NCBI GenBank assembly: GCA_015231605.1
Contig: JADGBG010000004.1
Coordinates: 1 to 44,957, forward strand
Direction of reading: 5' to 3'
DNA length: 44,957 nt
DNA from: Alphaproteobacteria bacterium
GTDB lineage: Bacteria; Pseudomonadota; Alphaproteobacteria; Rhodospirillales; Magnetovibrionaceae
The notes under the pieces are model-generated. The model saw nothing but the letters and a program-made list of their open reading frames with translations. It was not told the origin of the DNA and made no database searches. Positions within the stretch are counted from its first letter, which is position 1; each line of letters opens with the position of its first letter. Shown here piece by piece: positions 2,550-42,511 of the stretch. A program made the position numbers and the translations under genes.

Positions 2550-2599
2550 GCGGGTTTTCCCGTCCCTGACGGGAGGACGTGCGTTTCCGAATTCATGGC

Positions 2600-2627: not shown

Positions 2628-2758
2628 ATTGCCGTGCGCGCATGCGTCGGCGTGCAATGCCAGGACGGCGGCGGAAAAGCCCCTATCCCCGCGCGGTTCG
2701 AGTGGCTACCATGGCCCGGGATCGCCATCCGCGGGAAGACAGACTGGGGGCCGTCAAA

Positions 2759-4513: not shown

Positions 4514-4563
4514 CGGCTAACATGCGTCCGGGTTCGAGAACCGGACGGGAAGGACATGCACGG

Positions 4564-12093: not shown

Positions 12094-12363
12094 TGGACTA
12101 AGCCCCTGTTCTGGTTGGTCTCGCCCAATGTTTTGCAAGGGATGTGCCAGAAGCCGCGTGGCGTCTAATGCTCTGAAAAATAACGAAATATATTGGCGTG
12201 TCTCGGCAATGGTGGCGCAATGCCTTCCCAGCAGGTTGATTTTTTCCGAACCCACGGGGAAGAAGTTGCCTAGTGCGTACGCGGGTGGAAACACTTGACG
12301 CTATGCGCTTAGGGATGATGATGTGGCGACGACGACCGGATTGTTCACATGGCGAGAGGGCGC
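12094..12363. other. Divergent intergenic region between fliK and the GT41-like TPR gene
   Basis: About 270 bases hold the start regions of the minus-strand hook operon and the plus-strand TPR-glycosyltransferase gene. The stretch around 12175-12200 is AT-richer (ataacgaaatatatt). No full CtrA box and no sigma-54 element with the required GG-N10-GC spacing was found. No RNA gene was seen. Confidence 0.4.
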
Positions 12364-16253: not shown

Positions 16254-16348
16254 TCGAAAAAAATATCTGAAAAAATATCTTGCAAATGTCGTCCGCGTGT
16301 GGCTAAAATGAACACAGCATGGAGTAATCAGAAAGATTCTTCCTGTGG

Positions 16349-16368
16349 CAAGGCCAAGAAAAGCCTTG
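16349..16368 (+). promoter_or_regulatory. Stem-loop in the flagellin mRNA leader
   Basis: CAAGGC and GCCTTG pair around an 8-base A-rich loop, 34 bases before the flagellin start codon. In Caulobacter the flagellin mRNA leader is bound by the regulator FlbT; a leader hairpin here could serve the same purpose. Neither FlbT nor FlaF is encoded in the window, so this is a suggestion only. Confidence 0.3.
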
Positions 16369-16401
16369 TATTCAATGACTCTAGAAAAGAGGAACCTAGT
16401 C

Positions 16402-19783: not shown

Positions 19784-20046
19784 TCATGCTCGCGGCCAAC
19801 CTGTTCCGTCTGTCCAGCGAACCGCCCATGGCGGACCGCGTCCCGGCCGCGGTCGGGATCGATCTTTCGATAGGGTGCGCCATGGCCGGAAGAACGGGCT
19901 TCTGGTCGGGCAGGGTGCCGTCGCGTTTGGCGATCCTTCGGCCGATGGGGTATAAAATCCGGACCTCCACGCCGTGGCGCTGGGGGGCGGTCACGGGGAA
20001 CGAAGCCGTGCACGGTTTGAAATTCACGCATGGAGTGACGTCATGA
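19780..20046 (+). CDS. Possible small protein bridging the GH57 and radical SAM genes
   Basis: An 88-codon frame fills the gap between two neighbours. Its ATG overlaps the GH57 stop as ATGA and its own TGA overlaps the next ATG in the same way. This pattern is usual for translationally coupled genes. The product (MIMLAANLFRLSSEPPMADR at its start) is basic, Arg/Gly-rich in its second half, and matches no family I recognise. There is no clear ribosome site before it. It could also be non-coding leader with an open frame by chance, since the radical SAM gene has its own GGAG site inside it. Confidence 0.3.
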   Translation: MIMLAANLFRLSSEPPMADRVPAAVGIDLSIGCAMAGRTGFWSGRVPSRLAILRPMGYKIRTSTPWRWGAVTGNEAVHGLKFTHGVTS

Positions 20047-21137
20047 ACGAAACGTCGAAAACGGCCGCCACCGCTCCCGCCAAGTTGTTCATGGACGGCA
20101 CCAAACTCAACCGCCATCTCGAGACGGTGGTGAAATGGCAGAAAGGCGAATGGTTCGCCCCCATTCACATGGAGGTCAGCCTGACCAACGTCTGCAACCA
20201 GAAATGCACCTTCTGCTACACGGCCTGGGCACACGGCAAGGTCATGATGGATGAAGAGACAGTCGTTCGGATGATGCGTTCCGCGAAGGACGCCGGCGTG
20301 AAGAGCACCCTGATCGCCGGCGAGGGCGAGCCCACGGCCAACCCGGCCTACGTCAGGGCCATCGAAACCTGCGGCGAGGTGGGACTCGATTGCGCCCTCA
20401 ACACCAACGCGGTGAACCTCACGGATGACGCCCTGTATCGCATCCTGCCCCATCTGCAATGGGTCCGCTTCTCGGTGCAAGGCAGCACCAAGGAAAGATA
20501 CGCCGCGATCCATAAGGTGCCGGACCATCATTTCGACAAGGCGATGAGAAACATTCGCCGCGCCGCCGAGATCAAAAAGGAACTCGGCCTGGGCGTGACG
20601 CTCGGCGTACAGCAGGTGCTCATCGAGGAAAACGGCGCGGATGCACTCAACGTCGCCAAATTGGCGAAAGACCTGGGCGTCGACTACTATGTCATCAAGC
20701 CCTGCCATCCCCACGAAAAAACCACGTTCAAGTCGATTTCCCTTCTGGTCGAGAAATATCGCGACACCTTGGAGGCGGCGGCGGCGCTTTCGGACGACAA
20801 TTTCCGCGCCATCGTCCGTTGGAACTTTTTGGCCGAGGCGGAAGCGCGCCGTTCGTATGACCGCTGCATGGGGCTTCCGTTCATCATTCAGATCTTGTCG
20901 GACGGCGTCGTGTCGACCTGCTATCCCATGGCCGACAAGAAGGCGTTCCACTACGGCAACCTGCACGACATGGAACTGATCGACATTTTGAAATCCGACC
21001 AGTTCGCCAAGACCTGCAAGTGGGTCGAGGAAAACGTCGACGTGCACCAATGCATGCCGACCTGCCGGCAACATAACGTCAACAAGTACTTGTGGTGGCT
21101 GGAAGAAGAAAAGCCCGACCACTTCAACTTCATCTAG
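20043..21137 (+). CDS. Radical SAM/SPASM-like protein, paralogue A
   Basis: The 364-residue protein has the radical SAM cluster motif C51-x3-C55-x2-C58 (VCNQKCTFCY), the GEGEP element and LNTN, and a C-terminal SPASM-like Cys set including RCMGLP, STCYP and CMPTCRQH. The extreme C-terminus NKYLWWLEEEKPDHFNFI and the N-terminal LFMDGTKLNRHLE are shared with three other genes here (26163, 28070 and 32002). Enzymes of this superfamily cleave S-adenosylmethionine to a 5'-deoxyadenosyl radical; the substrate is unknown. The start at 20043 has GGAG eight bases upstream; the longer frame to 19974 lacks family similarity. A sigma-70-like promoter follows the gene. Confidence 0.85.
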   Translation: MNETSKTAATAPAKLFMDGTKLNRHLETVVKWQKGEWFAPIHMEVSLTNVCNQKCTFCYTAWAHGKVMMDEETVVRMMRSAKDAGVKSTLIAGEGEPTANPAYVRAIETCGEVGLDCALNTNAVNLTDDALYRILPHLQWVRFSVQGSTKERYAAIHKVPDHHFDKAMRNIRRAAEIKKELGLGVTLGVQQVLIEENGADALNVAKLAKDLGVDYYVIKPCHPHEKTTFKSISLLVEKYRDTLEAAAALSDDNFRAIVRWNFLAEAEARRSYDRCMGLPFIIQILSDGVVSTCYPMADKKAFHYGNLHDMELIDILKSDQFAKTCKWVEENVDVHQCMPTCRQHNVNKYLWWLEEEKPDHFNFI

Positions 21138-21155
21138 TCGCATTTCGCGTCAACA

Positions 21156-21185
21156 TTGACATTTTGATGCAAAATATCATATAGT
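21156..21185 (+). promoter_or_regulatory. Sigma-70-type promoter before the radical SAM gene at 21294
   Basis: TTGACA (21156-21161) and TATAGT (21180-21185) are separated by 18 bases within an AT-rich gap between two radical SAM genes. The -35 matches consensus fully and the -10 in five of six positions. It would start a leader of about 100 bases. Confidence 0.55.
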
Positions 21186-21293
21186 TATGGCGATAATGAA
21201 TTCAGGCGTCCACGGCTGGAGAAAGCAAGCCCCCCTGAACGATGCGTTATCATCCCATATCAACCACAAGAATGTGATTGGAAAGGGCAAGAA

Positions 21294-22277
21294 GTGCAAA
21301 AAGACACTTACCTTCTGGATTCCGTCCCGGAAATCCAATTTTATCTGGTTGAAATCACCACCGCCTGCCAGCTCCGCTGCCCCGGTTGCAAGCGCACGAC
21401 CGAACGCGGCAAGAAAAACTGGAGCAGCAACTTCATGCCGCTTGAGAAGGTCAAGCGCGTCATCGACAACATGCCCCCGAGCAATCACGTCATCTTTTCC
21501 GGCTTTGGCGAGGTGACCCTTCACCCCAATCTGCCCGACATTCTGTCGTACGCCAACAAAAGCGGAAAATTCCGCATCATTCAGATCAACACCAATGGTT
21601 TGATCAACGACATCGATTATTTCCGCATGTTGATCGATTGCGGCCTCAACTATTTGATGATTTCCGTCGATTCCCTGGATCAGAAAATTCTCGACGCCAG
21701 CCGAACCGGAACCAAGGCCAAACACCTTGAGACCGTGCTGCGAGGCATGGCCGATTTCCGCATTCCCGTCATCGCGTCCATCACCGTCAGCAAAACCAAC
21801 CTCGACGACCTGCCCAACACCTTGCGCCGGCTGAATGAGATCGGGAAATTCACGGTTGGGATCCGCGAAGCCGGCGACTTGGGCCTGCCCGACGTGATGT
21901 TGGACGCCGACGACCGGGTGCGTCTGGCCAAGCATCTGGTCAGCGTGATGCCGTTGGACAACTTGCGGGTGGACCCGCCGAAATCCATGATGGTGCAAAG
22001 AGAGGTGTGCGTCGATCCCTGGAACCGTCCAGGCATCAACATCAAAGGCGAATTGACGCCATGTTGTTGGACGAACGACGGATCGATCCTGGGGCATTTG
22101 GACATCACGTCCATGACCTACGAGGACGCTTGGTTCGAGCAGGGTCACCAGAACTGGCTCAACGGGTTCAGGGAGGCGTATCCCGAAAACCCCTGTTCGG
22201 GCTGTCCCCGCAATCCGAACCTGTGGTCGTCGTTCTGGACCGGCAAGGACTTCGTCCTGTACAGGACGTTGAAATAA
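21294..22277 (+). CDS. Radical SAM/SPASM-like protein (not of the four-paralogue group)
   Basis: The 327-residue protein has C25-x3-C29-x2-C32 (ACQLRCPGCK), the glycine-rich FSGFGEVTLHPNL and INTNG, and a C-terminal SPASM-type region with VCVDPW, TPCCWTNDGSILG and CSGCPRNPNLW. The pattern is that of radical SAM/SPASM enzymes that bind extra Fe-S clusters. The start is a GTG at 21294, preceded by AAAGGG at six bases. An AT-rich leader with a good promoter lies upstream, so this gene may begin a transcription unit. It is followed 13 bases later by a glycosyltransferase-like gene. It lacks the DGTK head and the HVNFI tail of the paralogue group, so it has a separate origin. Confidence 0.82.
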   Translation: MQKDTYLLDSVPEIQFYLVEITTACQLRCPGCKRTTERGKKNWSSNFMPLEKVKRVIDNMPPSNHVIFSGFGEVTLHPNLPDILSYANKSGKFRIIQINTNGLINDIDYFRMLIDCGLNYLMISVDSLDQKILDASRTGTKAKHLETVLRGMADFRIPVIASITVSKTNLDDLPNTLRRLNEIGKFTVGIREAGDLGLPDVMLDADDRVRLAKHLVSVMPLDNLRVDPPKSMMVQREVCVDPWNRPGINIKGELTPCCWTNDGSILGHLDITSMTYEDAWFEQGHQNWLNGFREAYPENPCSGCPRNPNLWSSFWTGKDFVLYRTLK

Positions 22278-22290
22278 GGGGGGCGAAGAG

Positions 22291-23991
22291 ATGGCGGACA
22301 TGACGATAAATTCGAGCGGCGCCGGCCTTGCGAGGTTCGAGGATCCCAACGACCAGGCATTGTTCGACAGCTTCGTTGCGCATCAGGCGGCATATCGGGA
22401 AAATCCCGCCGCTTTCATCGGAGGCATCGCCAAACACTTGAAGGAGGCCTTCGCGGCCCCGCGCGACGTGGAAACGGCCTATGCGGTCATGGCCTCCGTT
22501 CTGGCGGGATGCGACAACGCGCTGATCCACGGCGGCGGCAGTCACACCATCGGCTTCATCAAGACCCTGGATGATGAAACCACAAGCCGTATCAAGGGCA
22601 TCATCGACCTGCGCCCGTCCATGGTGCGCGGTTTGGACGCGTTTCCCATATTGACCCCCGAACAGGCGGCGGCCCAGGGCCGTGACCTCATCATCGTCGC
22701 CCATCCGGCGCGGGAGAGGGACATGGTGTCGGCCCTGACCGATGCGGGTGCCGATCCTTCGCGCATCGTACAAATCTACAGCCATCCCGACACCCTGGAA
22801 CGGGGGCGCAAAAAGCTTGACGCCATCCGCGACGAAGTGCTTGCGGCGCCCCCCAGGTTCGTGGTTGTCGACACCATCGGCATGTCCTGGAAGCTCGTCG
22901 ACGACAAGGCGCTGTCCACCGTTTTTCCCGCAAACGAAACCCTGGTGCTGTACCTGGGGCGGGCGGAACACCATCCGCCGCCGGGGCCGTTCCGGCTGAT
23001 CGACCTTTCGCAGTCGGCGGCGTTGTTGGCCGATCTCCTCGCCGCACTCAAGCCGGCGGCCGTGTATCTCCGCACGACCGCGCAGCTGGACACGGAATCC
23101 TATGCGGCCCTGATCAAGGAAGCGGCCCCGGGGACCCCCCTTATCCACGAATTGTACGATTCCGCCATCACGTTTTCCGACGACTATTTGCAATTCGGAT
23201 GGGGGATTTCCCCACCGGCGGCGACGCAGGCCAAACAAGCCGCCGCGTATTCCTTCAATGCGTCCGACATCTTGATACACAAGAACGGCAGCGCGTTGTG
23301 GGATCCGTTTCTCGAGCACGCCAAGGGCAAAACGTTCAAGTATTACCCCCAGGTCAGCGCGGGGCGCGCCTTGCCGGACGACGCGCCCACATCCACCGAT
23401 GGTCCGTTGCGGATCATCTATGCGGGTTCCATCCATTCCACCAGTTCTTTCAGCGCGGGCAGTGCATTCGCCTGGGCCAATGTCACGCCCCTGTTCGACC
23501 GCATCGTCCGGGACGGGAACGTGGAAGTGACCATGTATAACAGCCTGCATCAAGGCGTGGGCGGCGACGACAAATACGCCGACTTCCTTGATCGCTACGG
23601 CGCCGGCCCGATTCGATACAACCGCGGGGTTCCGCTGGACGCCCTGCTTGAGGATTGCGCCCGTCACCATTACGGGTGGACCGCTTTCTACCGCCCGAGC
23701 GGCAGTGAGCTGCCCCTGGTGGACAAAGTGGTGCTCCACAACAAGTTCACCAGCTACCTTCTGGCGGGTATTCCGGTGATCGTGACGGACTATTTCCTGC
23801 ACGTGGCGGGACTGGTCAGGGAATACAATGCGGGCGTGGTGGTCGCGAGTGAAGAGATCGAGACGCTGGGCCAGCGGCTGAATGCCACGGATTACCGGGA
23901 ACACAAGGCGGGGTGTCTGCGTTTGCGCCAGCACATGTTCGATCACAATGCCCGGGTTCTCGACGCCGTGAGAGGGGCGGGCCTATGGTGA
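22291..23991 (+). CDS. Glycosyltransferase-like protein with N-terminal Rossmann-type domain
   Basis: The 566-residue protein is two-part. Residues about 80-180 look like a nucleotide-binding regulatory fold (DNALIHGGGSHTIGFIK, then DLIIVAHPARERDMVSAL). The C-terminal half has GT-B features: LRIIYAGSIHSTSSF begins the donor-side domain, and FTSYLLAGIPVIVTDYFLH is the typical late motif. The acceptor and the sugar are unknown. It overlaps the next radical SAM gene by seven bases, indicating coupled expression. The family is inferred from short patterns, so glycosyltransferase is probable and no more specific function can be given. Confidence 0.6.
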   Translation: MADMTINSSGAGLARFEDPNDQALFDSFVAHQAAYRENPAAFIGGIAKHLKEAFAAPRDVETAYAVMASVLAGCDNALIHGGGSHTIGFIKTLDDETTSRIKGIIDLRPSMVRGLDAFPILTPEQAAAQGRDLIIVAHPARERDMVSALTDAGADPSRIVQIYSHPDTLERGRKKLDAIRDEVLAAPPRFVVVDTIGMSWKLVDDKALSTVFPANETLVLYLGRAEHHPPPGPFRLIDLSQSAALLADLLAALKPAAVYLRTTAQLDTESYAALIKEAAPGTPLIHELYDSAITFSDDYLQFGWGISPPAATQAKQAAAYSFNASDILIHKNGSALWDPFLEHAKGKTFKYYPQVSAGRALPDDAPTSTDGPLRIIYAGSIHSTSSFSAGSAFAWANVTPLFDRIVRDGNVEVTMYNSLHQGVGGDDKYADFLDRYGAGPIRYNRGVPLDALLEDCARHHYGWTAFYRPSGSELPLVDKVVLHNKFTSYLLAGIPVIVTDYFLHVAGLVREYNAGVVVASEEIETLGQRLNATDYREHKAGCLRLRQHMFDHNARVLDAVRGAGLW

Positions 23992-25142
23992 TGCCGATGA
24001 CGTCGAACGGTTTACGCGCCCTGGAAATTCCCGACAGTCTAAATTACGTCGGGGTTTTCCTGTACATGGGCTGCAACCTCAATTGCTCTTACTGCATCAA
24101 CGATCCCGACCAGGCGAGCCGGCGTGGCGACCTGTTTCCCAACCACGGCTCCTATCTGTCCCCCGAGGAATTCGCCGCCGGTCTGAACCGGATTCCGCCG
24201 CGCTCCGACCTGCCCATCACCCTGCAGGGTGGGGAACCAAGCCTTTATCACGGATCGAAAGGGTTGGGGACGTTGCTGGGCCTGTTGCACCACAAGGTCG
24301 ATTTGTTGGTGAACATGGTGTCGAAGCCCGACAAGCTGGTCGAATCGATCGCCCCGCATAAAGATCGCCTGACGCGGGACGCGCCCTATCCGTCGGTTCG
24401 GGTCAGTTATCATCCGGACGAGATGAAGCGCATTTGGGGCGAGGACGCGCCGAACGAATTGGTGCGGCGCTGTCAGCGCCTGGCCGACGCCGGTCTCAGC
24501 GTCCGTCCGGAAAAGCGCGACAGCGACGTCGGAATCTACCTCGTCGATTACCCGGGGCATCCCGAAGCCGAGGCCGAGATGGCGCGCGCCGCCAAGGGGA
24601 AGGTTCCGTTCGAAAAGAAGGAATTTCTCGGCGTTTACGACGGCCGGCTTTACGGATCGTACCTCTATCCGTTCTCCACGGACCTGTATTCCCGGATCGG
24701 TTACGAAGGCAGCATCTCGTGCGAATGCCGCACCACGGAATTGCTGATCGATCCCTTCGGGTTCGTCTGGCGTTGCCATTACTTCCTGTATCAAGCCATG
24801 AGCTCGAACCGGATGATCGAGCCGTATCGGCGTTTGCGCGAAATGGATTTCAGGTTTTCCGAACACCGCGCCGCCTTATGCGGCGCGTTGGAACAGGCGC
24901 CTTCCGGCCACATTCTGGATCCGGATTTCACCGTCGATCAGGTTTTTGCGTTCCAGCCGTGCGACAGTTATGGTCATTGCATCGGCTGCGACACCAAGAT
25001 CAAGAACAATCGCCATCAGAGCCTTTACGATCTCAACATTCCACACACATCGGTGATCATTCGCAATCTCCAGTTGCCCGATTTCCTCATGCGGCGGGCC
25101 GAGGCCGGTCACCCGGACGGGGAGGGAAAAATCCATGACTGA
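23985..25142 (+). CDS. Radical SAM protein with unusual C-terminal Cys cluster
   Basis: The 385-residue protein has C30-x3-C34-x2-C37 (MGCNLNCSYCI), the TLQGGEPSLY glycine-rich element and a C-terminal region with SCECRTTELLIDPFGFVWRC, and later CDSYGHCIGCDTKIKNN. The spacing of the second Cys group suggests one auxiliary Fe-S cluster, but it does not follow the standard SPASM pattern. The ATG at 23985 overlaps the preceding gene's stop; GAGAGGGGCGG is upstream. The gene overlaps the next glycosyltransferase by eight bases. It is not one of the four paralogues. The substrate is unknown; the neighbours on both sides are glycosyltransferase-like. Confidence 0.8.
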   Translation: MVMPMTSNGLRALEIPDSLNYVGVFLYMGCNLNCSYCINDPDQASRRGDLFPNHGSYLSPEEFAAGLNRIPPRSDLPITLQGGEPSLYHGSKGLGTLLGLLHHKVDLLVNMVSKPDKLVESIAPHKDRLTRDAPYPSVRVSYHPDEMKRIWGEDAPNELVRRCQRLADAGLSVRPEKRDSDVGIYLVDYPGHPEAEAEMARAAKGKVPFEKKEFLGVYDGRLYGSYLYPFSTDLYSRIGYEGSISCECRTTELLIDPFGFVWRCHYFLYQAMSSNRMIEPYRRLREMDFRFSEHRAALCGALEQAPSGHILDPDFTVDQVFAFQPCDSYGHCIGCDTKIKNNRHQSLYDLNIPHTSVIIRNLQLPDFLMRRAEAGHPDGEGKIHD

Positions 25143-26157
25143 ACTGTTCCTCACCCCGCTGAGAAAAAACGGCGTGGTCGTATCCGATCTGTCCAATGCC
25201 ATCGGCTCGGTCGTCTCGCGCGTGCGCGTGCTGATCATCAAGGCCGGCTACAGCGAAACCTTCGACCCGGACACCAGCGGCATCGTCAGTCTGGGCGACA
25301 TCGTGCGCTCGACCATCATCCTGAGCCTGTTGCCCCCGGTTCGTTATCACGTTTCCTGGGTGGTCGATGAATCCGGCGCCGCCCTGCTCGATCAGGTTTC
25401 TGAAATCGACCAGCTCATCCGGGTGACCTCGGCCACCTTGGATCAGATCACCCGGGGGACGTACGACATTGTCATCAACCTGGAAAAGTCGCCGAAGATC
25501 TGCCGGTTGGCCGAGAAGATCCAGGCCCGGGTTCACATCGGATTTCGCTATTGCGACATCAACGACCGCATCGACACGTTCCATGACGCGGACCATGTCC
25601 TGTCCATGACGACGGACCGGGAATTCAAGCGCCAGCAGAAAAAGTCTTGGTCGGAATTGTTGTTCGAAATGTTGGGGGCCGTCTATACCGATGCGCCCTA
25701 TTTGATGACGCCGCCCAGCGGCGAAGCCGATCTCTACGACTTCGGGCTGAACTGGCAGGTCGGAAAGAAGTTCCCCCTGAAAGGATGGCCCAAGGAGTTG
25801 TGGGACCAGCTGGATGTGTCGCTATCGAAAGATCATCGCGTATGCTGGCAGCAATCGACCAACGACCTGCACGGCTACATCAACTGGATCAATGCCTGCC
25901 GGGTGCTGATCACCAACGATTCCCTTGGTTTGCATCTTGCGCTGGGATTGGGGAAGAAGGTCGTGTCCATGTTCGGTCCCACCAGCATGGTGGAAATCCA
26001 CGACCACCCCAACATCATCAAGCTTCAGCCCGATGTGGACTGGTCATGCATTCCCTGTCTTGAAAGCCGCTGCTCTCGGGACGACATATGTATGGCGCAC
26101 ATTTCTCTCGAGCGGGTGCGCGACGCCGCTCTCGCCCTGTTGAACGGTTCTGCATAG
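25135..26157 (+). CDS. GT9-family (heptosyltransferase-like) glycosyltransferase
   Basis: The 340-residue protein has the GT9 plan. An N-terminal beta-alpha segment (RVRVLIIKAGYSETF, then LGDIVRSTIILSLLPP) is followed by the DIVINLEKSPKICRLAEKI region. The C-terminal donor domain has NDSLGLHLALGLGKK, VVSMFGPTSMVEIHDHP and the closing C-x2-C Cys group CIPCLESRC, with ICMAHIS, typical of heptosyltransferase-like proteins. Family members usually transfer heptose from ADP-heptose to lipopolysaccharide, but many act in other glycans. The start at 25135 overlaps the previous gene. It is followed by paralogue B of the radical SAM group after 5 bases. Confidence 0.8.
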   Translation: MTELFLTPLRKNGVVVSDLSNAIGSVVSRVRVLIIKAGYSETFDPDTSGIVSLGDIVRSTIILSLLPPVRYHVSWVVDESGAALLDQVSEIDQLIRVTSATLDQITRGTYDIVINLEKSPKICRLAEKIQARVHIGFRYCDINDRIDTFHDADHVLSMTTDREFKRQQKKSWSELLFEMLGAVYTDAPYLMTPPSGEADLYDFGLNWQVGKKFPLKGWPKELWDQLDVSLSKDHRVCWQQSTNDLHGYINWINACRVLITNDSLGLHLALGLGKKVVSMFGPTSMVEIHDHPNIIKLQPDVDWSCIPCLESRCSRDDICMAHISLERVRDAALALLNGSA

Positions 26158-26162
26158 GAAAA

Positions 26163-27230
26163 ATGGTCATGGACCAAAACCGACTTCTCATGGATGGAAC
26201 GAAAATCCAATACCATCTGGAAGCTCTGGCGAAATGGAAACGCGGCGAAACCGTCTATCCGATCTTGGTTGAAATCAGTCCGACCAACGGCTGCAACCAC
26301 GGCTGCACCTTCTGCGCCTACGATTACATCAACCGGGACAACACGTTCCTGGATGCCGACCGCCTGATGGCCGTTCTGGATGAGCTGCGCGAACTGGGGA
26401 CGAAGTCCCTTTTCTATTCCGGGGAGGGCGAACCGCTCCTGCACAAGCAGCTGACGGAAATCATTGGCCATGCCGCCGGGCTCGGGTTCAGCCAGGGGTT
26501 GAACACCAACGGAACGGCGCTGCTCGGCGAGACCATGACGTCCATCGTGCCCCACATGTCCTTTATCCGCTGTTCCATCAACGGCGCCACGGCAGAAGAG
26601 TACGCAGAGACGCATAGAACCAAACCAAAGCAATTCGACGACGTTCTCCGAAATCTTGAGGCCGCGGTAGCCTTCCGTGAACGGGAAGGGCTGGAGACCA
26701 CCATCGGCGTTCAGATGGTATATCTGGGGCAAAAGGTCGAGGACATCGTCGCCATGGGGCGGCGCATCAAATCCCTGGGGCTGAATTACTTTTCGGTCAA
26801 GCAGTTCAACGAACACCCCCGCAATCCCTTCAAAACGGATTTCGACAGACTCACCGACGACAATATCGGCCCGATCACGGCCCTTTCGGATGACGGGTTT
26901 CTGGCGACCGTGCGCACCGGCCTCCAAAGCGGACTGGAGAAAAGAACGTACAAACGATGTCTGGCGTTGCCGTTCTTTGCCGAAATCGTCGCCAACGGCG
27001 AGGTCTATGCCTGCGGCCCGCATCTGGGCGAGCCTGACTACTGCTATGGCAGCATCCACGACATGACCTTTACGCAAATGTGGGATCCGGCCAACCGCGC
27101 CAAGGTCACCAATTACATCGACGGCGTCGACGACCTGGATTGCGAATGCATGCCCAATTGCCGGCTGGACGCCTTGAACCGGTTCCTGTGGGAACTCGAA
27201 AATCCCCCGGCACACGTGAATTTCATCTGA
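26163..27230 (+). CDS. Radical SAM/SPASM-like protein, paralogue B
   Basis: The 355-residue protein is built like the gene at 20043. The N-terminal LLMDGTKIQYHLE precedes C44-x3-C48-x2-C51 (GCNHGCTFCAYDY). SGEGEPLLHK and LNTNG follow; the C-terminal part has RCLALP, YACGP and CMPNCRLDALNRFLWELE, ending in NPPAHVNFI. The start is 26163 or 26169; TAGGAAAA stands just before. It is co-directional with the GT9 gene upstream and a methyltransferase 10 bases downstream. The four paralogues probably act on related substrates, or in sequence, but nothing in the sequence names the substrate. Confidence 0.85.
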   Translation: MVMDQNRLLMDGTKIQYHLEALAKWKRGETVYPILVEISPTNGCNHGCTFCAYDYINRDNTFLDADRLMAVLDELRELGTKSLFYSGEGEPLLHKQLTEIIGHAAGLGFSQGLNTNGTALLGETMTSIVPHMSFIRCSINGATAEEYAETHRTKPKQFDDVLRNLEAAVAFREREGLETTIGVQMVYLGQKVEDIVAMGRRIKSLGLNYFSVKQFNEHPRNPFKTDFDRLTDDNIGPITALSDDGFLATVRTGLQSGLEKRTYKRCLALPFFAEIVANGEVYACGPHLGEPDYCYGSIHDMTFTQMWDPANRAKVTNYIDGVDDLDCECMPNCRLDALNRFLWELENPPAHVNFI

Positions 27231-27240
27231 GCGGCCGCCC

Positions 27241-28077
27241 ATGCAGATCACTTGCCCCACATGCGGTCCCGCCGCGCCCCGTAACGATTTCGGACGGAGG
27301 TCCGGTTTCGCCTTGGCGCGCTGCGGCGACTGCGGTCTGGTCTTTCTCGACCACGTCGACGAAACGGTCAACGACGCGTTCTTCCAGGACACCGCCAAGG
27401 ACAACGCCGTTCCGGCCCAGGAAAACGCCATCGAATATTGGAGCTTTCCAAACCTATACGAAAAGCACAGGCACGTTTTCGACGGCTTCTTCGATGAACG
27501 CCTGCGCCGCCTGCGCGCCCTGAAGCCGGAGATCCGGAACCTGTTGGACGTGGGGTGCGGTTACGGGCTTTTCCTAAACCACGTGAGTGGCGTGATCCCG
27601 GACGTGCAGGGGATTGAATTGGATCCGAACGTGGCCGACTACGCCCGCAAGGCGTATGGCCTGGAGATCGGCACCGCGCCGATCGAACGGTTTACGACCG
27701 ACCGGCATTTCGATGTCATCACCATGTGCGACGTCCTCGAACACCTGGCCGATCCCCTGCCGGTTCTGGAGAAATGCCGATCCCTGTTGACCGATGACGG
27801 CGTGCTGATGATCCAGGTCCCGAACATGCTGGGATTCAAGGTTCCCTACGGCCATAGCTGGGGCTTGCCTCACCACATCTGGCAGTTTTCGACGCCGAGC
27901 CTAAAGCGCATGTTGGAGAAAACGGGATTCCGCGTGGTCGCGCGGCATACCGGCGTGATGGGAGTCGTCGGCGTCTACGAACACGGTGGCCCCACCCTGG
28001 GCGATCGCCTGGCATGGTGGGCGGGCCGCCACTTGGGCATTGGCAACCGTCTGATGATGTTCGCTTGTCCTAGATGA
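27241..28077 (+). CDS. Class I SAM-dependent methyltransferase with N-terminal zinc ribbon
   Basis: The 278-residue protein begins with a Cys4 zinc-ribbon-type element (CPTC at residues 5-8, then CGDC about 20 residues later). The methyltransferase domain shows motif I LLDVGCGYGLFLNHV, the acidic loop QGIELDPNVA, and FDVITMCDVLEHLADPLPVL. This resembles Methyltransf_23-type sugar or small-molecule methyltransferases. It is the last gene of the plus-strand run. Its stop overlaps the tail of the convergent minus-strand radical SAM gene by eight bases, so the two operons meet here without a terminator. Confidence 0.82.
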   Translation: MQITCPTCGPAAPRNDFGRRSGFALARCGDCGLVFLDHVDETVNDAFFQDTAKDNAVPAQENAIEYWSFPNLYEKHRHVFDGFFDERLRRLRALKPEIRNLLDVGCGYGLFLNHVSGVIPDVQGIELDPNVADYARKAYGLEIGTAPIERFTTDRHFDVITMCDVLEHLADPLPVLEKCRSLLTDDGVLMIQVPNMLGFKVPYGHSWGLPHHIWQFSTPSLKRMLEKTGFRVVARHTGVMGVVGVYEHGGPTLGDRLAWWAGRHLGIGNRLMMFACPR

Positions 28078-29164
28078 AATCGACGTGCCGCGGCGGGTTC
28101 TTCAGGGACCAGAGCAGTTTGTTGATGTTGTGATGGCGACAGTGCTTCATGCACGAATGAACATCGAGGCTGGTTTCAATCCGTTCGATCACGTCGTTTT
28201 TCAGTTTACCCGTCCAGATTTCTGCAAACGAGTTTTCGTACAGACTGCCGTAACTGAAATCGGGTTCCCCATAAAATCCGCAACAGGTATAAATGCGCCC
28301 GTCCGCCAAAACGTAGGCAAGAAAAGGCAGGCCGAGACAGCGGTCATACGAACGGCTTCCGTCATCGTCGAAATTGTTGCGCCGGATGATCACCTGGAAA
28401 TCGTCGGTGGCGAGGGATTCGGCTTTCCGGAACTGCTCCTCGCACTCCAAATGAATCTGGGGGCGGATGGAGAAGTCATTCATATTCTGCTCGGCGAACC
28501 GTTTCACCGTGAAATAGCTGGCGCCGGCATCCTTCGCTTTTTGCGCCAGCGCCACGATTTCGTGTTTGTTCTCTTCCAAGAGGATCTGCTGGATGCCGAT
28601 GGTGCAGGCCAGACCGTGGCGTCTCTTGAACGCGGAGGCGTCGGCGATGTTTTGGAATACGGTGTCGAAGTCCCTCGGCTTGGTCTTGTGGATGGCGCTG
28701 TAGGTTTCCGCCGTGCCGGCGGCGACGCTGACGCGCATCCATTCCAGGTGCGGCAGAACACGAGTCATGGTTTCGCGTTTTAAATGCACGCCGTTTGTAT
28801 TCAACGCCATGCTCATCCCGGCTTGCGCACCGGCTTCGATGGCGTCGGGCAGCCGCCGGTTCAGCAAAGGTTCGCCATCGCCCGCGAACAGAATGCTTTT
28901 CACCCCACATGCGGCGGCGTCGCGCAGCAGCTTGATCATCACGTCGCCGTCGAGAAAGCCTTTTCGCTCCGGCTTGTAGTCGACGATGCAGAACGTGCAG
29001 CGGTGGTTGCAGGCACCGGCGGGGGAGATGTCCAGATGAATCGGAAAAATGGCTTCGCCCCGCGCCCAGGCCGCGAGGCGCTCGGTATGGTGCATGAGCT
29101 TGGTGCCGTCGATAAACAGCGGGGAGGCCTGGGAGACTGGTTTGTTCATGGGTCCGCTCGACAT
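28070..29164 (-). CDS. Radical SAM/SPASM-like protein, paralogue C
   Basis: The 364-residue protein shows all marks of the local paralogue group. LFIDGTKLMHHTERL is followed by C52-x3-C56-x2-C59 (ACNHRCTFCIVDYKPERK), then FAGDGEPLLN and LNTNG. The C-terminal Cys set has RCLGLP, YTCCGFYG and CMKHCRHHNINKLLWSLK, ending NPPRHVDFI. Compared with paralogue A, the GEGEP element reads GDGEP. The start at 29164 or the second ATG at 29149 are both possible. It is the last gene of the minus-strand operon that begins at 33608, and it faces the plus-strand methyltransferase. Confidence 0.85.
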   Translation of the reverse strand: MSSGPMNKPVSQASPLFIDGTKLMHHTERLAAWARGEAIFPIHLDISPAGACNHRCTFCIVDYKPERKGFLDGDVMIKLLRDAAACGVKSILFAGDGEPLLNRRLPDAIEAGAQAGMSMALNTNGVHLKRETMTRVLPHLEWMRVSVAAGTAETYSAIHKTKPRDFDTVFQNIADASAFKRRHGLACTIGIQQILLEENKHEIVALAQKAKDAGASYFTVKRFAEQNMNDFSIRPQIHLECEEQFRKAESLATDDFQVIIRRNNFDDDGSRSYDRCLGLPFLAYVLADGRIYTCCGFYGEPDFSYGSLYENSFAEIWTGKLKNDVIERIETSLDVHSCMKHCRHHNINKLLWSLKNPPRHVDFI

Positions 29165-29229
29165 GGTTCACCCGGTCCGTTTGGGGAACCGAACGGTGAA
29201 TGTTCCGACCGCGATTTTCCCGTCTACCG

Positions 29230-30963
29230 TCATGCCACATCCTGGGTGGCGTGCACGAACCCGCGGGTCAATTCACGGTACTCGTTGAAGTACATGCGCT
29301 GTCCACCCTGGCCCGACACCAGCCTGTCGGCGATCATTTCGGGAAACTCGTATCCCGCATGATAGGTTTTCCGGCAGGTCACGATGACGGCGTCGTAGGT
29401 GTTCTGGCGCAACCGGTCGTACTGTTCCGTGGTCAGGCTGTTGACGTGAAAGAATTTGTCTTCGACCGTGAACACCTCGCCGTTGGTCGTGGCCGGCGTG
29501 AATGGGTTGTTCTTGCGGTCGGGCACGAGGATATCCAGTTGGGTGTCCGGATAAACGGCCCGGAAGTCGTTGATCGCATCCTGGAACTGGTCGTTTCTCA
29601 CGCTCCGCAGCAGCAGAATGCGCTTGGGCGTCACCCCAAGCCTTTCCATCTGCGTTCCAATATCGTCGCGTTCCAGGACATTGCGCACCTTTTGCGATTC
29701 CGCCAGTGCCCGCTTCATCAACTCGTAGTCCACGCCTTTGATTTTCTCGCTGTCGGGATAGCGGCTGTATTCTTCCCAGGGACGGTCGATCAAAAGGCCC
29801 TTGCGTTCGCAGTAGGTGTACAGACCGGTCCCCGGCGTCGGGGTGAAGAACGAGCACAGATACACATACGGACGGATCTGCTGCATCATCGACACGGTCT
29901 GCCAGGCTTCTTCCTCGGTTTCGGTGGGGATGCCGAACATGTAGTTGGCGATGATGTTGATGCCGTAGCGGTGACAGATTTCGGCGGCGGTCAGGTTCTG
30001 CTCGCGCGTGGTGTGCTTGCCCAAGAACTTCAAAACCCGGTCGCTGCCGCTTTCGAATCCGATGGACAACGCGATGCAGCCGCTCTTGCTCATGCGCTCG
30101 ATCATGTCCTCGTTTTGGCAGATGATGTCGGACCGCGCTTGGCAGGACCATTTCAGATCGATCCCGTTGGCGTCCAGCTGATCGCAGAAAGCGAAGATCC
30201 AGTCCCGCTCCTGGGTTAGGCAGTCGTCTTGGAACATGGTGCTTTTCAGGCCGAAGCGGTCAACGAGGATCTTGATTTCCTCGATCACGTTTTCCGGTGA
30301 GCGGTTGCGCACGCCGCCGAACATCAGCCGTTCGGCGGGCTGGCAGAAGGTGCAGTGGTACAGGCATCCGCGTCCCGCGACCAGCGTCATGAAGGGTTTC
30401 GGCAAAAGATTGATGACGGGTTGCTCCTCGAAGGCGAACAGGTCGCGGTCGAAGAAAGGCAGGTCGTCAAGATTCGCCGCCGGCTCGCCCCGGATCACGC
30501 CCTTGGGCGGCGGGGTGTCGCCGTCCAGGTCGCGCACCAGCTTGAGAATGGAGATTTCGCCTTCCGCCGTGATGATGTAGTCGAACAGCTCTTCCTTCAC
30601 GACTTCGTCGGTCATCAGCGTCACGTGCGGCCCGCCGCCGACGATGGGGCTGTCGGGCGTCAGGGCGCGCAAACGCTCGATGCACTGCTTGACCACGCCG
30701 TAGTTGACGGTCAAGACGCTCAGTCCGAACAGGACGGTTTCGCCGCCGACAAGGGCGGCGCGAACCCGTTCGTCGAAATCTTCCCAGCCGGACAGGCGGC
30801 GCAGGTCGATCAGACCCACCTCGACGCCGTTCTTCTTGAGGTTGGCGCTCATCAGGGCCATGCCCGGATGAGGCCAGGTTTCCGTCGTTACGCCCGCTGA
30901 CTCCTGGTTCTTGAAGCCGACGCCGCACGAAATACCCGGATAGATGAAAACGACTTTGACCAT
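29230..30963 (-). CDS. Cobalamin-binding-type radical SAM protein with extra C-terminal domain
   Basis: The 577-residue protein is a class B type radical SAM enzyme. The N-terminal 140 residues form a B12-binding-type fold (VKVVFIYPGISCGVG, then PIVGGGPHVTLMTDE). The radical SAM core has C200-x3-C204-x2-C207 (GRGCLYHCTFCQ), then STMFQDDCLTQERDW and LSIGFESGSDRVLKFLGK. Relatives include BchE-like cyclases and radical methylases. The last 150 residues (KRILLLRSVRNDQFQDAI, then TQLDILVPDRKNNPF) are not part of the normal core and look like the first half of a GT9-type glycosyltransferase fold. The ATG at 30963 has GAGGAAGGA in front. The enzyme may methylate or rearrange an intermediate of the same pathway. 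Confidence 0.82.
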   Translation of the reverse strand: MVKVVFIYPGISCGVGFKNQESAGVTTETWPHPGMALMSANLKKNGVEVGLIDLRRLSGWEDFDERVRAALVGGETVLFGLSVLTVNYGVVKQCIERLRALTPDSPIVGGGPHVTLMTDEVVKEELFDYIITAEGEISILKLVRDLDGDTPPPKGVIRGEPAANLDDLPFFDRDLFAFEEQPVINLLPKPFMTLVAGRGCLYHCTFCQPAERLMFGGVRNRSPENVIEEIKILVDRFGLKSTMFQDDCLTQERDWIFAFCDQLDANGIDLKWSCQARSDIICQNEDMIERMSKSGCIALSIGFESGSDRVLKFLGKHTTREQNLTAAEICHRYGINIIANYMFGIPTETEEEAWQTVSMMQQIRPYVYLCSFFTPTPGTGLYTYCERKGLLIDRPWEEYSRYPDSEKIKGVDYELMKRALAESQKVRNVLERDDIGTQMERLGVTPKRILLLRSVRNDQFQDAINDFRAVYPDTQLDILVPDRKNNPFTPATTNGEVFTVEDKFFHVNSLTTEQYDRLRQNTYDAVIVTCRKTYHAGYEFPEMIADRLVSGQGGQRMYFNEYRELTRGFVHATQDVA

Positions 30964-31014
30964 GGTTCCATTCCTTCCTCGTTCTGAGGGCGATCTGGTT
31001 TCATATGGGAACGC

Positions 31015-31980
31015 TCAGGTTCCGGCTTCGCTGGCGGCCTGCAACGCCGTCAACACGGTGTCCGAGACGGCCGGGCCGTTGGCGAACGCCAAGTTGGCCG
31101 CGACGTGTTCCGCCGTTCGCATGCCCGGTATGACGCACGAAACGCCGTCCAGCGCCAAGGAGAACGACAGGGCGGCGTCGCCAACCTTGACGCCGTTCCT
31201 CGCGCAAATGTCCTCGACACGCGCGCGCCGGTCGAGATCCGCCTTGTGACGAGGAGAATCCGCCGACCAGTCCCGCCGCACGTCGTCGTCCCCATAACGC
31301 CGCGTGGCGTCGAAGGCGTTGGACAAAATCCCCCGCCCAAATGGCGAAGCGACCAGAACCCCGAGGTTCCGTTCGCGGACTTGGGCATGGATCGTGTCCG
31401 CAAAACGGTTAAAGAAGAGATTGTAGTACACTTCCACGACTTCAATCGTGGGGTCGTCCAGATACGGAGCGGCGTTGTCGAAGCTTGCCGCGACGGACAG
31501 GCCCGTGTGCCGGGCCAGACCTTCCCGTTTCATGACGGAGAGCGCCTCGCTCGCGCCCTGCCAGGCCTCGGCCGAGGTCGGCACGACATGAACCAGAAAG
31601 ATGTCCACGGCTTCGCGCTTGAGGCGTTTCAGGCTGCGCTTGAGGGCGGCGATCAGGTGCTCGCGCGACACGTCCACGCACGTTCCGTCGCGCCCATCCG
31701 GTATGTATCCCGCCTTGGTGACGATCTGGGCCTCGGGCGTGGTGGCCAGGGCCGCACCCAGATAATGTTCCGCGCGACCTAGGCCATAGAAATCCGCCGT
31801 ATCGAACAGCGTGACGCCGCCGTCCAGGGCCTGCTTGATGGTGGCGAGGGCTTGGTCCTCGGAAACCTCGCCATAACCAAAGGGGCGTCCCGCGATGTTC
31901 AGCGCGCCGGCCAGCGGCCAGGTGCCCATGCCCACTTCCGAAACGGTCAATCCGGTTTTTCCCAGGGCGCGATGGCGCAT
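31015..31980 (-). CDS. Aldo/keto reductase
   Basis: The 321-residue protein has the full aldo/keto reductase plan with catalytic tetrad Asp60, Tyr65 (LFDTADFYGLGRAEHYLG), Lys89 (IVTKAGYIPDG) and His131 (VDIFLVHVVPTS). VLVASPFGRGILSN and GVSCVIPGMRTAEHVAANL form the NADP-binding end. The length is normal. In sugar pathways such enzymes reduce keto-sugars or aldehydes, which would suit the radical SAM products, but the substrate is unknown. GGAG stands eight bases before the ATG. It lies between a radical SAM gene (22 bases upstream) and the cobalamin-type gene (51 bases downstream). Confidence 0.9.
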   Translation of the reverse strand: MRHRALGKTGLTVSEVGMGTWPLAGALNIAGRPFGYGEVSEDQALATIKQALDGGVTLFDTADFYGLGRAEHYLGAALATTPEAQIVTKAGYIPDGRDGTCVDVSREHLIAALKRSLKRLKREAVDIFLVHVVPTSAEAWQGASEALSVMKREGLARHTGLSVAASFDNAAPYLDDPTIEVVEVYYNLFFNRFADTIHAQVRERNLGVLVASPFGRGILSNAFDATRRYGDDDVRRDWSADSPRHKADLDRRARVEDICARNGVKVGDAALSFSLALDGVSCVIPGMRTAEHVAANLAFANGPAVSDTVLTALQAASEAGT

Positions 31981-32001
31981 AAGCGAAACTCCTGCCCCGG
32001 T

Positions 32002-33057
32002 TCAAATGAAGTTGACGTGATCGGGCGGGTTGCGAAGCGACCACAGAAAGCGGTTGATCGAATTGTGCCGACAGATGGGTTCGCAGGTCGTGAAGTCCTG
32101 ATGGTGCTCCACACGCTTTTGAATGGCGGCCTTGATCTCGCTGTTCCAGATTGCCGGAAAGTCCTGATCGCGCAGGTTGCCGTAGCAGTAATCCTTGTTG
32201 CCCCAGAAGCCGTTGCAGGTATAGACGCCACCGTCTTCGCCGACCATGGCGATGAACGGCAAGCCCAGGCATTGTCCGTAATCGCGTTTGTGCACTTGTT
32301 CGAACTGATCCATGCGAATTTCGACATGAAAACCGTCGGTGCTGAGTTCGCGCAGGGCGTCGAGGACGTCGCGGCACTGTTCAAACAGGCGCACGTCGGC
32401 GCGAAAGTCGTTGCGCACGTTCTGGCTGGGCGGCTTGACCACCATGTAATCGAAGCCGCTGTCCTTGAGGATTTTCGCCAGATTGACGGCGACGCCGGCG
32501 TTGTCCCGCATCAGGCAGAACACCGCGCCCAAGGTGACCTTGAGAGTCCTTTGCGCCTTGATCCGCCCCGCCATGGCGAGATTGGCGGTCAACGCGTCCC
32601 AGTCGCTTTCCTTGGTGCGATGAAGTTTGGCGTAGGTTTCCCGGGAGCCGCCGAGAATGCTGAACCGCATCCAGGTCAACGCGGGCAGGGCGACGTGCAG
32701 ACTTTGTTCGTCGAGCAGGACGCCGTTGGTCGATACCGCCATGTCGGTTCCGTTCTCGGACGCTATGGCGATGGCTTCCGGGGTCGCCTCGTTGAGAAAC
32801 GGTTCACCCGTGCCGGCGACGAATGCGCTCTTGACGCCGCATCGCCCAATGTCCCGGGCGAGTTTGCGGAACAGGTCGCCGTCAAGCTTGGGACCCTTGT
32901 GGCCAAGGTAATCGACGTAGCAGTGAACGCAACGGTGGTTGCACCGGCCGATGGGGCTGATGTCCAGGTGAATGGGAAAGAACGGCTCCCCGCTTTGCCA
33001 CTTCACCAATTCATCGAGGTGGTGGTGCAGCTTGTGACCCGACAGCTGGAGCGACAT
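32002..33057 (-). CDS. Radical SAM/SPASM-like protein, paralogue D
   Basis: The 351-residue protein starts LQLSGHKLHHHLDELVKW, the group's N-terminal signature with DGTK changed to SGHK. C39-x3-C43-x2-C46 follows (RCNHRCVHCYVDYLG), then VAGTGEPFLNE and VSTNGV. The C-terminal set has QCLGLP, YTCNGFWG and CEPICRHNSINRFLWSLR, ending NPPDHVNFI. It is the most diverged of the four at its N-terminus. Its ATG overlaps the TGA of the TIGR04076-like gene (TGATG), with GAGGACG six bases upstream, so the two proteins are made together. The longer frame to 33111 lies within the neighbour gene and is not supported. Confidence 0.85.
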   Translation of the reverse strand: MSLQLSGHKLHHHLDELVKWQSGEPFFPIHLDISPIGRCNHRCVHCYVDYLGHKGPKLDGDLFRKLARDIGRCGVKSAFVAGTGEPFLNEATPEAIAIASENGTDMAVSTNGVLLDEQSLHVALPALTWMRFSILGGSRETYAKLHRTKESDWDALTANLAMAGRIKAQRTLKVTLGAVFCLMRDNAGVAVNLAKILKDSGFDYMVVKPPSQNVRNDFRADVRLFEQCRDVLDALRELSTDGFHVEIRMDQFEQVHKRDYGQCLGLPFIAMVGEDGGVYTCNGFWGNKDYCYGNLRDQDFPAIWNSEIKAAIQKRVEHHQDFTTCEPICRHNSINRFLWSLRNPPDHVNFI

Positions 33058-33608
33058 CACACGTCCTCTTTCGCGATTTTGAAAGTCACGTTGTTGTTGT
33101 TGTCGGGGCATACGCCGATGAATTCATGCCCTTGGGGCAGAAATTGGCTTTGTCCACCGTTGAGGAAGCTGCTCAGGTACGGGAAGAGCTGGTTGAACGC
33201 CGCGGGGCAGAAGCCATTGCCGTCACCTTGGTTGACCTCGAACGTCTCGCCCCCGCCATGGGGACAGTCGCAGCGGATCGCGCCGGGTATGTCGACCGCG
33301 TCGTTGATGCCGTCGACGCTCACGCGGACGTGAAAACGTCCCTCGGCATCGATTTCCCGATGAATGTCGAGAATGCGCGGGGACGACAGCGCCGGGCATT
33401 GCGCGTACACGTGGTCTGGGTTGTCCTTCATCCAGTCGAACTCCACCTTGTGCAACATGCCCAGGATGTAGGGGTACGCGGTGAAGTAGGCATGAAGGCA
33501 CAGGCCTTCGGGCGCGAGGTCCTGAAGGCGGAAACGTTCGCCGACGGTGCGGTGATACTTACAGCCCCCACTGATGTGGGTGAGCGTCACATTTGGCGTG
33601 GATACCAT
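33057..33608 (-). CDS. Duplicated TIGR04076-like small protein
   Basis: The 183-residue protein contains two copies of a TIGR04076-like pattern. Copy 1 has CKYHRTVGERFRLQDLAPEG, then LCLHAYFTAYPYILGMLHKV and AQCPALSSPRILDIHRE. Copy 2 has CDCPHGGGETFEVNQGDG, then GFCPAAFNQLFPYLSSFLNG and GVCPDNNNNVTFKI. In each copy the order Cys...GE-F...G-C-x2-A-F...YP/FPYL...CP...N is kept. The biochemical function of the family is not known to me. The protein is first in the minus-strand operon and is translationally coupled to radical SAM paralogue D, so it may be its partner, substrate or carrier. A sigma-70-like promoter lies about 75-100 bases upstream. Confidence 0.65.
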   Translation of the reverse strand: MVSTPNVTLTHISGGCKYHRTVGERFRLQDLAPEGLCLHAYFTAYPYILGMLHKVEFDWMKDNPDHVYAQCPALSSPRILDIHREIDAEGRFHVRVSVDGINDAVDIPGAIRCDCPHGGGETFEVNQGDGNGFCPAAFNQLFPYLSSFLNGGQSQFLPQGHEFIGVCPDNNNNVTFKIAKEDV

Positions 33609-33682: not shown

Positions 33683-33710
33683 ACTCTAACATTTGAACGT
33701 GGTGTGTCAA
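33683..33710 (-). promoter_or_regulatory. Candidate promoter of the minus-strand radical SAM operon
   Basis: On the minus strand TTGACA (33705-33710) and TAGAGT (33683-33688) are 16 bases apart. The leader would be about 70 bases to the start at 33608. The -35 overlaps the alternative GTG at 33704 of the divergent adenylation gene, which argues for that gene starting at 33737 instead. Confidence 0.4.
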
Positions 33711-33736
33711 AATCTAACTTTCCAGGATTTTCTTCG

Positions 33737-35329: not shown

Positions 35330-35347
35330 AACCAGAAGGAGGTTCAC

Positions 35348-35587: not shown

Positions 35588-35591
35588 TTCG

Positions 35592-38928: not shown

Positions 38929-38954
38929 TGCGGAATGTTCAACGAGGCTTGAAA

Positions 38955-40187: not shown

Positions 40188-40194
40188 GCAGGGC

Positions 40195-42500: not shown

Positions 42501-42511
42501 AGGGATAAGAC

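Follow-up and report, generated by a model that had tools for sequence, protein, structure and literature searches.

What might seven radical enzymes be doing beside a flagellin gene? The question is raised by a window of 44,957 bases, bases 1-44957 of a 68,959-base contig (C210) in the genome of an uncultured alphaproteobacterium (3.18 Mb in 213 contigs). A first-pass annotation, made from the letters of the window, had noticed a tight group of genes for radical S-adenosylmethionine (rSAM) proteins next to flagellin, had seen no NeuB- or PseI-type synthase there, and had proposed from gene order that the group serves a single flagellin-glycan pathway. We find that the rSAM cluster is real and not due to chance. 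We consider it probable that this island is the variable cargo of a nonulosonate flagellin O-glycosylation locus, in which the rSAM enzymes would oxidise or deoxygenate sugars; all seven may contribute to one glycan.

A radical SAM island in a flagellar frame

All seven genes exceed the PF04055 cut-off of 29.5 bits (range 31 to 83 bits), and a separate CxxxCxxC motif is present in every one of them, as first reported for genes with low ends at 20043, 21294, 23985, 26163, 28070, 29230 and 32002. We call them R1 (20043..21137, + strand, PF04055 3.8e-20), R2 (21294..22277, +, 2.2e-19), R3 (23985..25142, +, 3e-7), R4 (26163..27230, +, 8.6e-17), R5 (28070..29164, -, 5.5e-15), R6 (29230..30963, -, 2.5e-22) and R7 (32002..33057, -, 2.2e-14; its start is taken at 33057, the open reading frame opening at 33111). 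The genome as a whole has 36 PF04055 matches, 34 of them over the cut-off; seven of the 36 lie inside 13 kb, where 0.15 would be expected (binomial p = 1.4e-10), and 20,000 random placements of 36 genes put at most six into any 13-kb window, a control that ignores a possible general clustering of rSAM genes.

These genes lie in two opposed runs. The first, on the + strand, reads R1, R2, X1, R3, GT9, R4, MT1, with 7-8 base overlaps or 5-10 base gaps at the X1/R3, R3/GT9, GT9/R4 and R4/MT1 junctions; the second, on the - strand, reads T4076, R7, AKR, R6, R5. Most of the neighbours named in the first-pass annotation were confirmed, namely flagellin, Maf, the GH57-like protein, the methyltransferase MT1 (27241..28077, +; Methyltransf_23 1.4e-24) and the aldo/keto reductase AKR (31015..31980, -; PF00248 3.5e-47), which lies between R7 and R6, upstream of R6. 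Its glycosyltransferases fared unevenly: GT9 (25135..26157, +) is a clear heptosyltransferase-like protein (PF01075 4.2e-9), and X1 (22291..23991, +) is a putative glycosyltransferase with a weak match to the sugar transferase family NF007322 (2.9e-4, far under the cut-off) and no Pfam match.

The island is inserted in an ordered set of genes, which we call the frame: FlgD, FliK, a TPR transferase, Maf, FliC and the GH57-like gene at one end, then, beyond the cargo, a cytidylyltransferase/PseG gene, NeuB, PseB and FlbT, so that flagellar genes stand on both sides. At the first end, flagellin (16345..17577, +; Flagellin_N/C), of which residues 161-330 are 39% Ser+Thr, is accompanied by two candidate flagellin transferases, Maf (14304..16253, +; PF20157 1.5e-51, PF01973 2.3e-30) and a TPR protein with a GT41-like domain (12349..14307, +; Pfam TPR, Glyco_transf_41 2.1e-8; 43% identity in relative G015 and 33% in G009), which is FlmG-like by the architecture described in excerpts of PMC7591256. 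The GH57-like gene (17747..19783, +; PF03065 1.8e-14) follows as a conserved part of the frame.

The other end lies just past the window edge. Between 0.1 and 3.8 kb beyond it, adjoining flagellar genes, we find on the - strand a CTP_transf/PseG-like fusion (C210:45058-46902; PF02348, CTP_transf_3, 1.9e-28), whose second half has a weak match to EryCIII-like_C (0.004) and is presumably PseG-like by position and by fold; a NeuB of 296 residues with the catalytic NeuB domain only (C210:46856-47746; PF03102 6.2e-57; nearest solved protein SpsE, 1.5e-30); PseB (C210:47739-48743; PF02719 2.5e-102); and FlbT (C210:48780-49244), which adjoins PseB, with FlgK further along the contig. The observation that no NeuB-type synthase is visible is thus correct for the window and wrong for the contig, and with nonulosonate genes directly outside the window the glycan need not be thought of as made without NeuB; the gene at C210:46856-47746 rules out that reading of the locus. 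Nine DegT/PseC matches exist in the genome and none on C210, so that, NeuB and PseB being present, a nonulosonate is likely made here, though not by the textbook pseudaminic set.

The NeuB copy on C210 and its orthologues in ten loci measure 284-335 residues. Five NeuB matches were detected in the genome; the one on C210 spans 46955-47644, and three of the other four frames have 363-384 residues. Two NeuB genes with 34% identity to the C210 copy belong to a second nonulosonate island of the same genome (G000:C9, L016-L018, about 5-32 kb), together with a DUF4910 gene, a DegT aminotransferase and several rSAM genes. A fourth NeuB (380 residues) is found on G000:C12 (L019, 1535-4835), and roughly 1 kb away stands a gene distantly belonging to the R1/R4/R5/R7 group.

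Comparison with relatives separates what is kept from what is exchanged. The GH57-like gene occurs in four of 18 genomes of the family and ten of 385 of the class (the present genome counted in both), that is, in 12 others, each of which has NeuB and/or the PseFG fusion in the stretch examined. In G015 the frame has the identical order, at 38-74% identity, and the cargo lies between the GH57-like gene and PseFG; in G009 the order is kept, reversed, on a single contig; in G013 the GH57-like gene, NeuB, PseB and FlbT are present, and Maf and flagellin are not in the stretch examined. The DNA between the two ends is largely exchanged and still rich in rSAM genes. The cargo holds seven of 36 PF04055 matches of the genome in our organism, five of 26 in G015, five of 15 in G009 and three of 28 in G013 (binomial p = 1.4e-8, 2.1e-6, 3e-6 and 0.0026; these values are post hoc, with genome sizes rounded for the relatives). 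Other cargo genes are common to the islands: from the right-hand run of the window, the AMP-ligase (63% identity) and the AAC(3)-like gene (60%) recur in G009, the DUF4910/DUF2172 gene in G015 (53%) and G009 (51%), and a set of ATP-grasp, short-chain dehydrogenase/reductase (SDR) and thiamine pyrophosphate (TPP) enzyme genes in all three cargoes at 27-43%. Among the nine more distant GH57-like loci, eight have NeuB, eight PseFG, six PseB, eight an SDR and seven both ATP-grasp and TPP enzyme genes.

A family member that lacks the GH57-like gene (G011:C3:16361-36544) groups three rSAM genes inside 5 kb, followed after about 7 kb by NeuB, and also has methyltransferase and AMP-ligase-like genes.

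The tie between rSAM island and flagellin glycan proposed at first thus gains from the enclosing flagellar genes and from the recurrence of the frame in G015, G009 and partly G013, with several rSAM genes each. Known loci offer partial parallels. As in the Maf loci of Campylobacter, Aeromonas and Magnetospirillum and the FlmG system of Caulobacter, Maf and an FlmG-like TPR transferase stand by flagellin, with PseB, NeuB and cytidylyltransferase/PseG genes. Unlike in known nonulosonate loci, both transferase types occur here together, DegT/PseC is not on the contig, the frame includes a GH57-like gene, NeuB is reduced to 296 residues of catalytic domain, and the cargo is rich in rSAM genes. Within the open-access literature, in the portions of text available, we found nothing that links rSAM genes to flagellin glycosylation, Maf, pseudaminic acid or a flagellin glycan. 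For surface structures, excerpts of PMC8743553 list an rSAM gene of C. jejuni HS:19 with a methyltransferase and a glycosyltransferase under methylation/capsule, and a list of phase-variable genes of C. fetus, in excerpts of PMC6321876, includes two rSAM genes.

A putative sugar-oxidising family in the cargo

The seven rSAM proteins sort into four types, of which the largest comprises R1, R4, R5 and R7. R5 shares 38-42% identity with R1, R4 and R7, and the four have in common the C-terminus H-(V/F)-(N/D)-F-I (HFNFI in R1, HVNFI in R4 and R7, HVDFI in R5). They form one uncharacterised family, apparently sugar-modifying to judge from sequence and a structure model. In an alignment of 44 chosen members, from which L121:14552-15691 and G017:2111030-2112169, two copies without the extra cysteines, were left out, seven cysteines are invariant, three in the rSAM motif and four in the C-terminal third (C276, C294, C338 and C342), as are H360 and F363, and G289 is conserved in at least 90%. 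The auxiliary-cluster motif of SPASM and twitch domains is CX9-15GX4C ... CX2-3C, and R1, R4, R5 and R7 have this cysteine pattern; PF13186 itself scores above its cut-off in R1, R5 and R7 (SPASM 5.1e-7 in R7) and below it in R4. Both extra cysteine pairs are found in 61 of the 62 strong family matches (38 loci, among the matches listed), L121:14552-15691 being the exception.

The nearest solved enzyme is DesII, a TDP-4-amino-4,6-dideoxy-D-glucose ammonia-lyase. A seven-row profile of the family finds DesII first (1.5e-13), then BlsE (1.3e-11), and the 44-row profile finds DesII (2.2e-17), SuiB (3.5e-16) and BlsE (8.8e-15). An AlphaFold2 model of R5 (predicted local distance difference test score, pLDDT, 92.7; predicted template modelling score, pTM, 0.90) retrieves DesII chains as its first six Foldseek matches (2.8e-17, 16-19% identity), and VIA-align places DesII first as well (Z 27.2, root-mean-square deviation 3.7 over 338 of 364 residues), followed by SkfB (25.7), BlsE (24.2) and SuiB (24.0), with BtrN at 19.1. 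Family membership is another matter: R5 scores 51.7 bits against a cut-off of 450 for the DesII family TIGR04426, which is matched at E <=1e-5 by 43 of the 44 aligned members, as are several other rSAM families. According to excerpts of PMC11434129, DesII acts on TDP-sugars and has a single [4Fe-4S] cluster and an extra N-terminal helical domain. Unlike this single-cluster enzyme, nearly all members of the R1/R4/R5/R7 family have four further cysteines. Here the likeness is to BtrN, a twitch-type rSAM dehydrogenase: profile positions 236-333 align with BtrN 137-235, although no single stretch passes 1e-8 alone, and the family differs from BtrN in being longer and in its rSAM core. Residues 137-235 of BtrN hold its auxiliary cluster, and we infer that the four extra cysteines hold a BtrN-like one. 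Taken together, the DesII-like core would point to sugars and the extra cysteines to oxidation.

Two other assignments were considered for these proteins. Their best NCBIfam match, the tungsten-cofactor maturase TIGR04317, reaches 65-84 bits against a cut-off of 380 and was rejected. A mechanism in which a cysteine donates hydrogen, as in the epimerases NeoN and EpeE, is not favoured for the whole family, no cysteine being invariant over the 44 rows beyond the two sets of cluster ligands; C187 of R5, common to many members, leaves room for it.

The family is widespread. A scan of genome contigs from 84,980 species gave at least 47 loci, 38 with strong matches, and the matches listed include Planctomycetota, Omnitrophota, Desulfobacterota, Nitrospirota, Campylobacterota, Lachnospiraceae, Chlorobiota, Methylococcaceae, Magnetococcales, Rhodospirillaceae, Pacearchaeota and others. 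Gene context was counted, with no background control, in 44 loci after nine weak ones (L145, L146, L149-L155) had been dropped; 41 of the 44 have a clustered family rSAM gene. Among these 41, again for the matches listed, at least two family rSAM genes occur in 25; a TPP enzyme is encoded in 27, an NAD epimerase in 22 and a SIS protein in 20, and a fused CTP_transf_like-PfkB (HldE-like) gene is present in 18. Context genes were named from one representative per cluster, and the label E1-beta was given by position and by likeness to the TPP enzyme of the window.

Such a cassette is seen in compact form at 9845-17684 of L126, from the named isolate Methylomonas sp. WSC-7 (rSAM, epimerase, SIS, CTP_transf-PfkB fusion, TPP E1 alpha and beta, second rSAM), and G017:C1:2105133-2118921, a relative on one contig, combines the full rSAM/TPP/SIS/HldE-like cassette with two B12-rSAM genes. 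The relative of the fusion in L127 has the nucleotidyltransferase domain first, the reverse of the domain order of HldE. We found no description of this cassette in the open-access literature, as far as its accessible text goes.

Does the cassette tell us what is made in the present island? In the tree, R4 pairs with the copy in G213 (100/100; 55% identity), apart from R1, R5 and R7, which meet the second, B-type clade at an unresolved fork only; a large A-type clade excludes all copies of the window. The branches are long, and a recent tandem duplication of the four is not supported. The fused CTP_transf_like-PfkB gene has no match in our genome at E 1e-20; it is found in G009, G013, G015 and G017, within the islands in G009 and G013. 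The transfer of a heptose-like product to our island is weakened by the fork of R1, R5 and R7, the separate position of R4 and the missing HldE-like match, and the cassette therefore shows the family's kind of work, not the product made here. Accordingly, we regard a bolder proposal as doubtful: that R1, R4, R5 and R7 form a new class of sugar-oxidising rSAM enzymes, with a DesII-like core, a BtrN-like cluster and the H-x-N-F-I end, that in many phyla two of them act together with an epimerase, a TPP enzyme, a SIS isomerase and a nucleotidyltransferase/kinase fusion to make a heptose-like sugar not yet described, which may be a branched or a deoxy sugar, and that this chemistry was recruited repeatedly into the flagellin glycan islands of our organism's alphaproteobacterial family.

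The other three types are less telling. R2 is an rSAM/SPASM protein (SPASM 22.8 bits, cut-off 21.5) and R3 an atypical rSAM protein without a SPASM match; both have general matches only, and relatives of R3 at 36-45% identity occur in L110, L112, L139 and L144. R6 carries a B12-binding domain (PF02310 8.2e-14), and its nearest solved sequence is AprD4 (6fd2, apramycin biosynthetic oxidoreductase 4; 1.3e-13), an rSAM diol dehydratase of apramycin synthesis. It scores 63.5 bits against a cut-off of 500 for the AprD4 family NF033070, and its best NCBIfam match, far under cut-off, is HpnJ, which with others outscores AprD4. A reductase gene adjoins R6, as in the AprD4 system; unlike there, it encodes an aldo/keto reductase.

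Proposed chemistry and its rivals

In the reading that we favour, the frame would make a nonulosonate and attach it to flagellin, and the cargo would supply further sugars and substituents to decorate or lengthen it. R1, R4, R5 and R7 would use the 5'-deoxyadenosyl radical to abstract hydrogen from an activated sugar at a carbinol carbon, after which the extra cluster may accept the second electron, giving a BtrN-like dehydrogenation, or a leaving group may be lost as in DesII. R6 could either methylate as a B12-rSAM enzyme or dehydrate its substrate in the manner of AprD4, in which case the neighbouring aldo/keto reductase would reduce the keto product. GT9 and X1 would add the products and MT1 would methylate them. 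If this is true, radical enzymes take flagellin-glycan chemistry beyond the pseudaminic and legionaminic routes, an uncharacterised rSAM family of many phyla gains a testable substrate class, activated sugars, and the conserved frame with its swappable, rSAM-rich cargo is a natural series of glycan variants.

Several observations weigh against this reading or narrow it. None of the island's rSAM proteins reaches the cut-off of a curated NCBIfam rSAM family, and for R5 the tungsten-cofactor maturase (72.9 bits), MoaA (58.6) and viperin (58.1), all far under cut-off, score above DesII. The second, B-type copy in G017 (2111030-2112169) lacks the four extra cysteines, as does L121:14552-15691. No GH57-like match exists in 14 of the 18 family genomes, DegT/PseC is absent from C210, the A-type clade leaves out the window copies, and Flagellin_N matches twice more in the genome, away from C210. 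The island rSAM proteins of G015, G009 and G013 are at most 28% identical to those of the window, the nearest, in G013, being a distant member of the R1/R4/R5/R7 group; with no rSAM conserved across islands, the frame includes no particular rSAM step. In the nine distant core loci, some of them on short contigs and compared by BLAST rather than by PF04055, no match above 45 bits to the window's rSAM proteins was found. Exchanged between islands and unmatched in distant loci, the rSAM genes are thus cargo and not frame, and the core pathway does not seem to require them. The idea of a single flagellin-glycan pathway is, in this form, partly supported: the flagellar frame recurs with several rSAM genes each time, but a nonulosonate pathway is present and the rSAM genes are not individually conserved.

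An alternative that we judge unlikely is that the cargo makes lipopolysaccharide or capsule sugars and is merely placed among flagellar genes. GT9 belongs to a heptosyltransferase-type family, and genes like R3 and GT9 stand beside a family rSAM gene in L110, L112 and L139 (Omnitrophota, Desulfuromonadaceae, Helicobacteraceae). In the flanks of L109-L154 we detected no flagellin with a profile from ten alphaproteobacterial flagellins, only 16 of the 47 loci being at least 20 kb long, and ten of 35 family-bearing genomes, many of them partial, lack a Flagellin_N match. In G017 some 0.8 Mb separate the cassette from the Flagellin_N matches, which are located at 1.30-1.32 Mb. The first-pass annotation had held that the same genes conserved far from flagellar loci, in an unrelated role, would speak against the link to flagellin; with relatives of four of the rSAM proteins in other phyla and the distant cassette of G017, part of this pattern is indeed seen. 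On the other side, Maf, flagellin, NeuB and PseB enclose the cargo in an order kept in G015 and G009, and, among the alphaproteobacterial genomes covered, G211 and G304 have weaker family members at a distance of about 5 kb from flagellins, and in G060 the distance to a flagellin-like open reading frame is 16 kb.

It is less probable still that the rSAM genes were acquired one module at a time, for flagellin, lipid and lipopolysaccharide products, and form a mosaic gathered only by a hot spot of exchange. The cargo does differ among close relatives, the rSAM proteins are of four types, and R4 groups with the G213 copy away from R1, R5 and R7. Such a mosaic fits poorly with the tight packing in two opposed runs and with the associations that recur elsewhere: R4, an R5-like gene and MT1 form a trio again in G213, where MT1 (52% identity) stands beside the rSAM pair, and R3, GT9 and a family rSAM occur together in three phyla.

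Finally, that some or all of the rSAM proteins modify a peptide, be it flagellin itself or a small precursor, in the style of maturases of ribosomally synthesized and post-translationally modified peptides, among which SPASM domains are common, is very improbable: the peptide-modifying SkfB and SuiB do come close behind DesII in structure and SPASM matches do occur in the cargo, but DesII is first in all three comparisons with solved structures, sugar genes surround the family's relatives, and Pfam scans of the cargo at E 0.01 found no PqqD-type domain, small precursor reading frames not having been searched for.

Remaining genes of the locus

The rest of the cargo begins with a TIGR04076-family protein (T4076, 33057..33608, -; 86 bits, cut-off 33), which opens the second rSAM run. 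Another + run then fills 33704-44957. It starts with an AMP-ligase of the amino-acid adenylation type (33704..35329; PF00501 1.9e-65), the DUF4910/DUF2172 protein (35592..36872; PF16254 1.9e-99), an AAC(3)-like N-acetyltransferase, presumably sugar-acting (36818..37672; PF02522 1.9e-25), and a C-methyltransferase-like protein (37669..38928; PF13489, PF08484). Two ATP-grasp ligases follow, at 38925..40187 (PF18603 9e-17) and 41031..42500 (PF18603 5.3e-12, PF13535 7.8e-10; the true start is probably further downstream), with one gene without a family match between them. The run is completed by a DXS/transketolase-like TPP enzyme (42512..44281; PF13292 3.7e-79, PF02779, PF02780) and an SDR (44266..44957) that continues to C210:45054.

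Two observations concern the margins of the locus. At 2579-6606 of the window, upstream of the flagellar hook genes, stand two long TPR proteins in tandem; for each, the 25 best Pfam matches include no catalytic domain. Near FlbT, at the end of the glycosylation locus, a Fic/DOC protein is encoded at C210:50408-51130 (L014 6208-6930, +).

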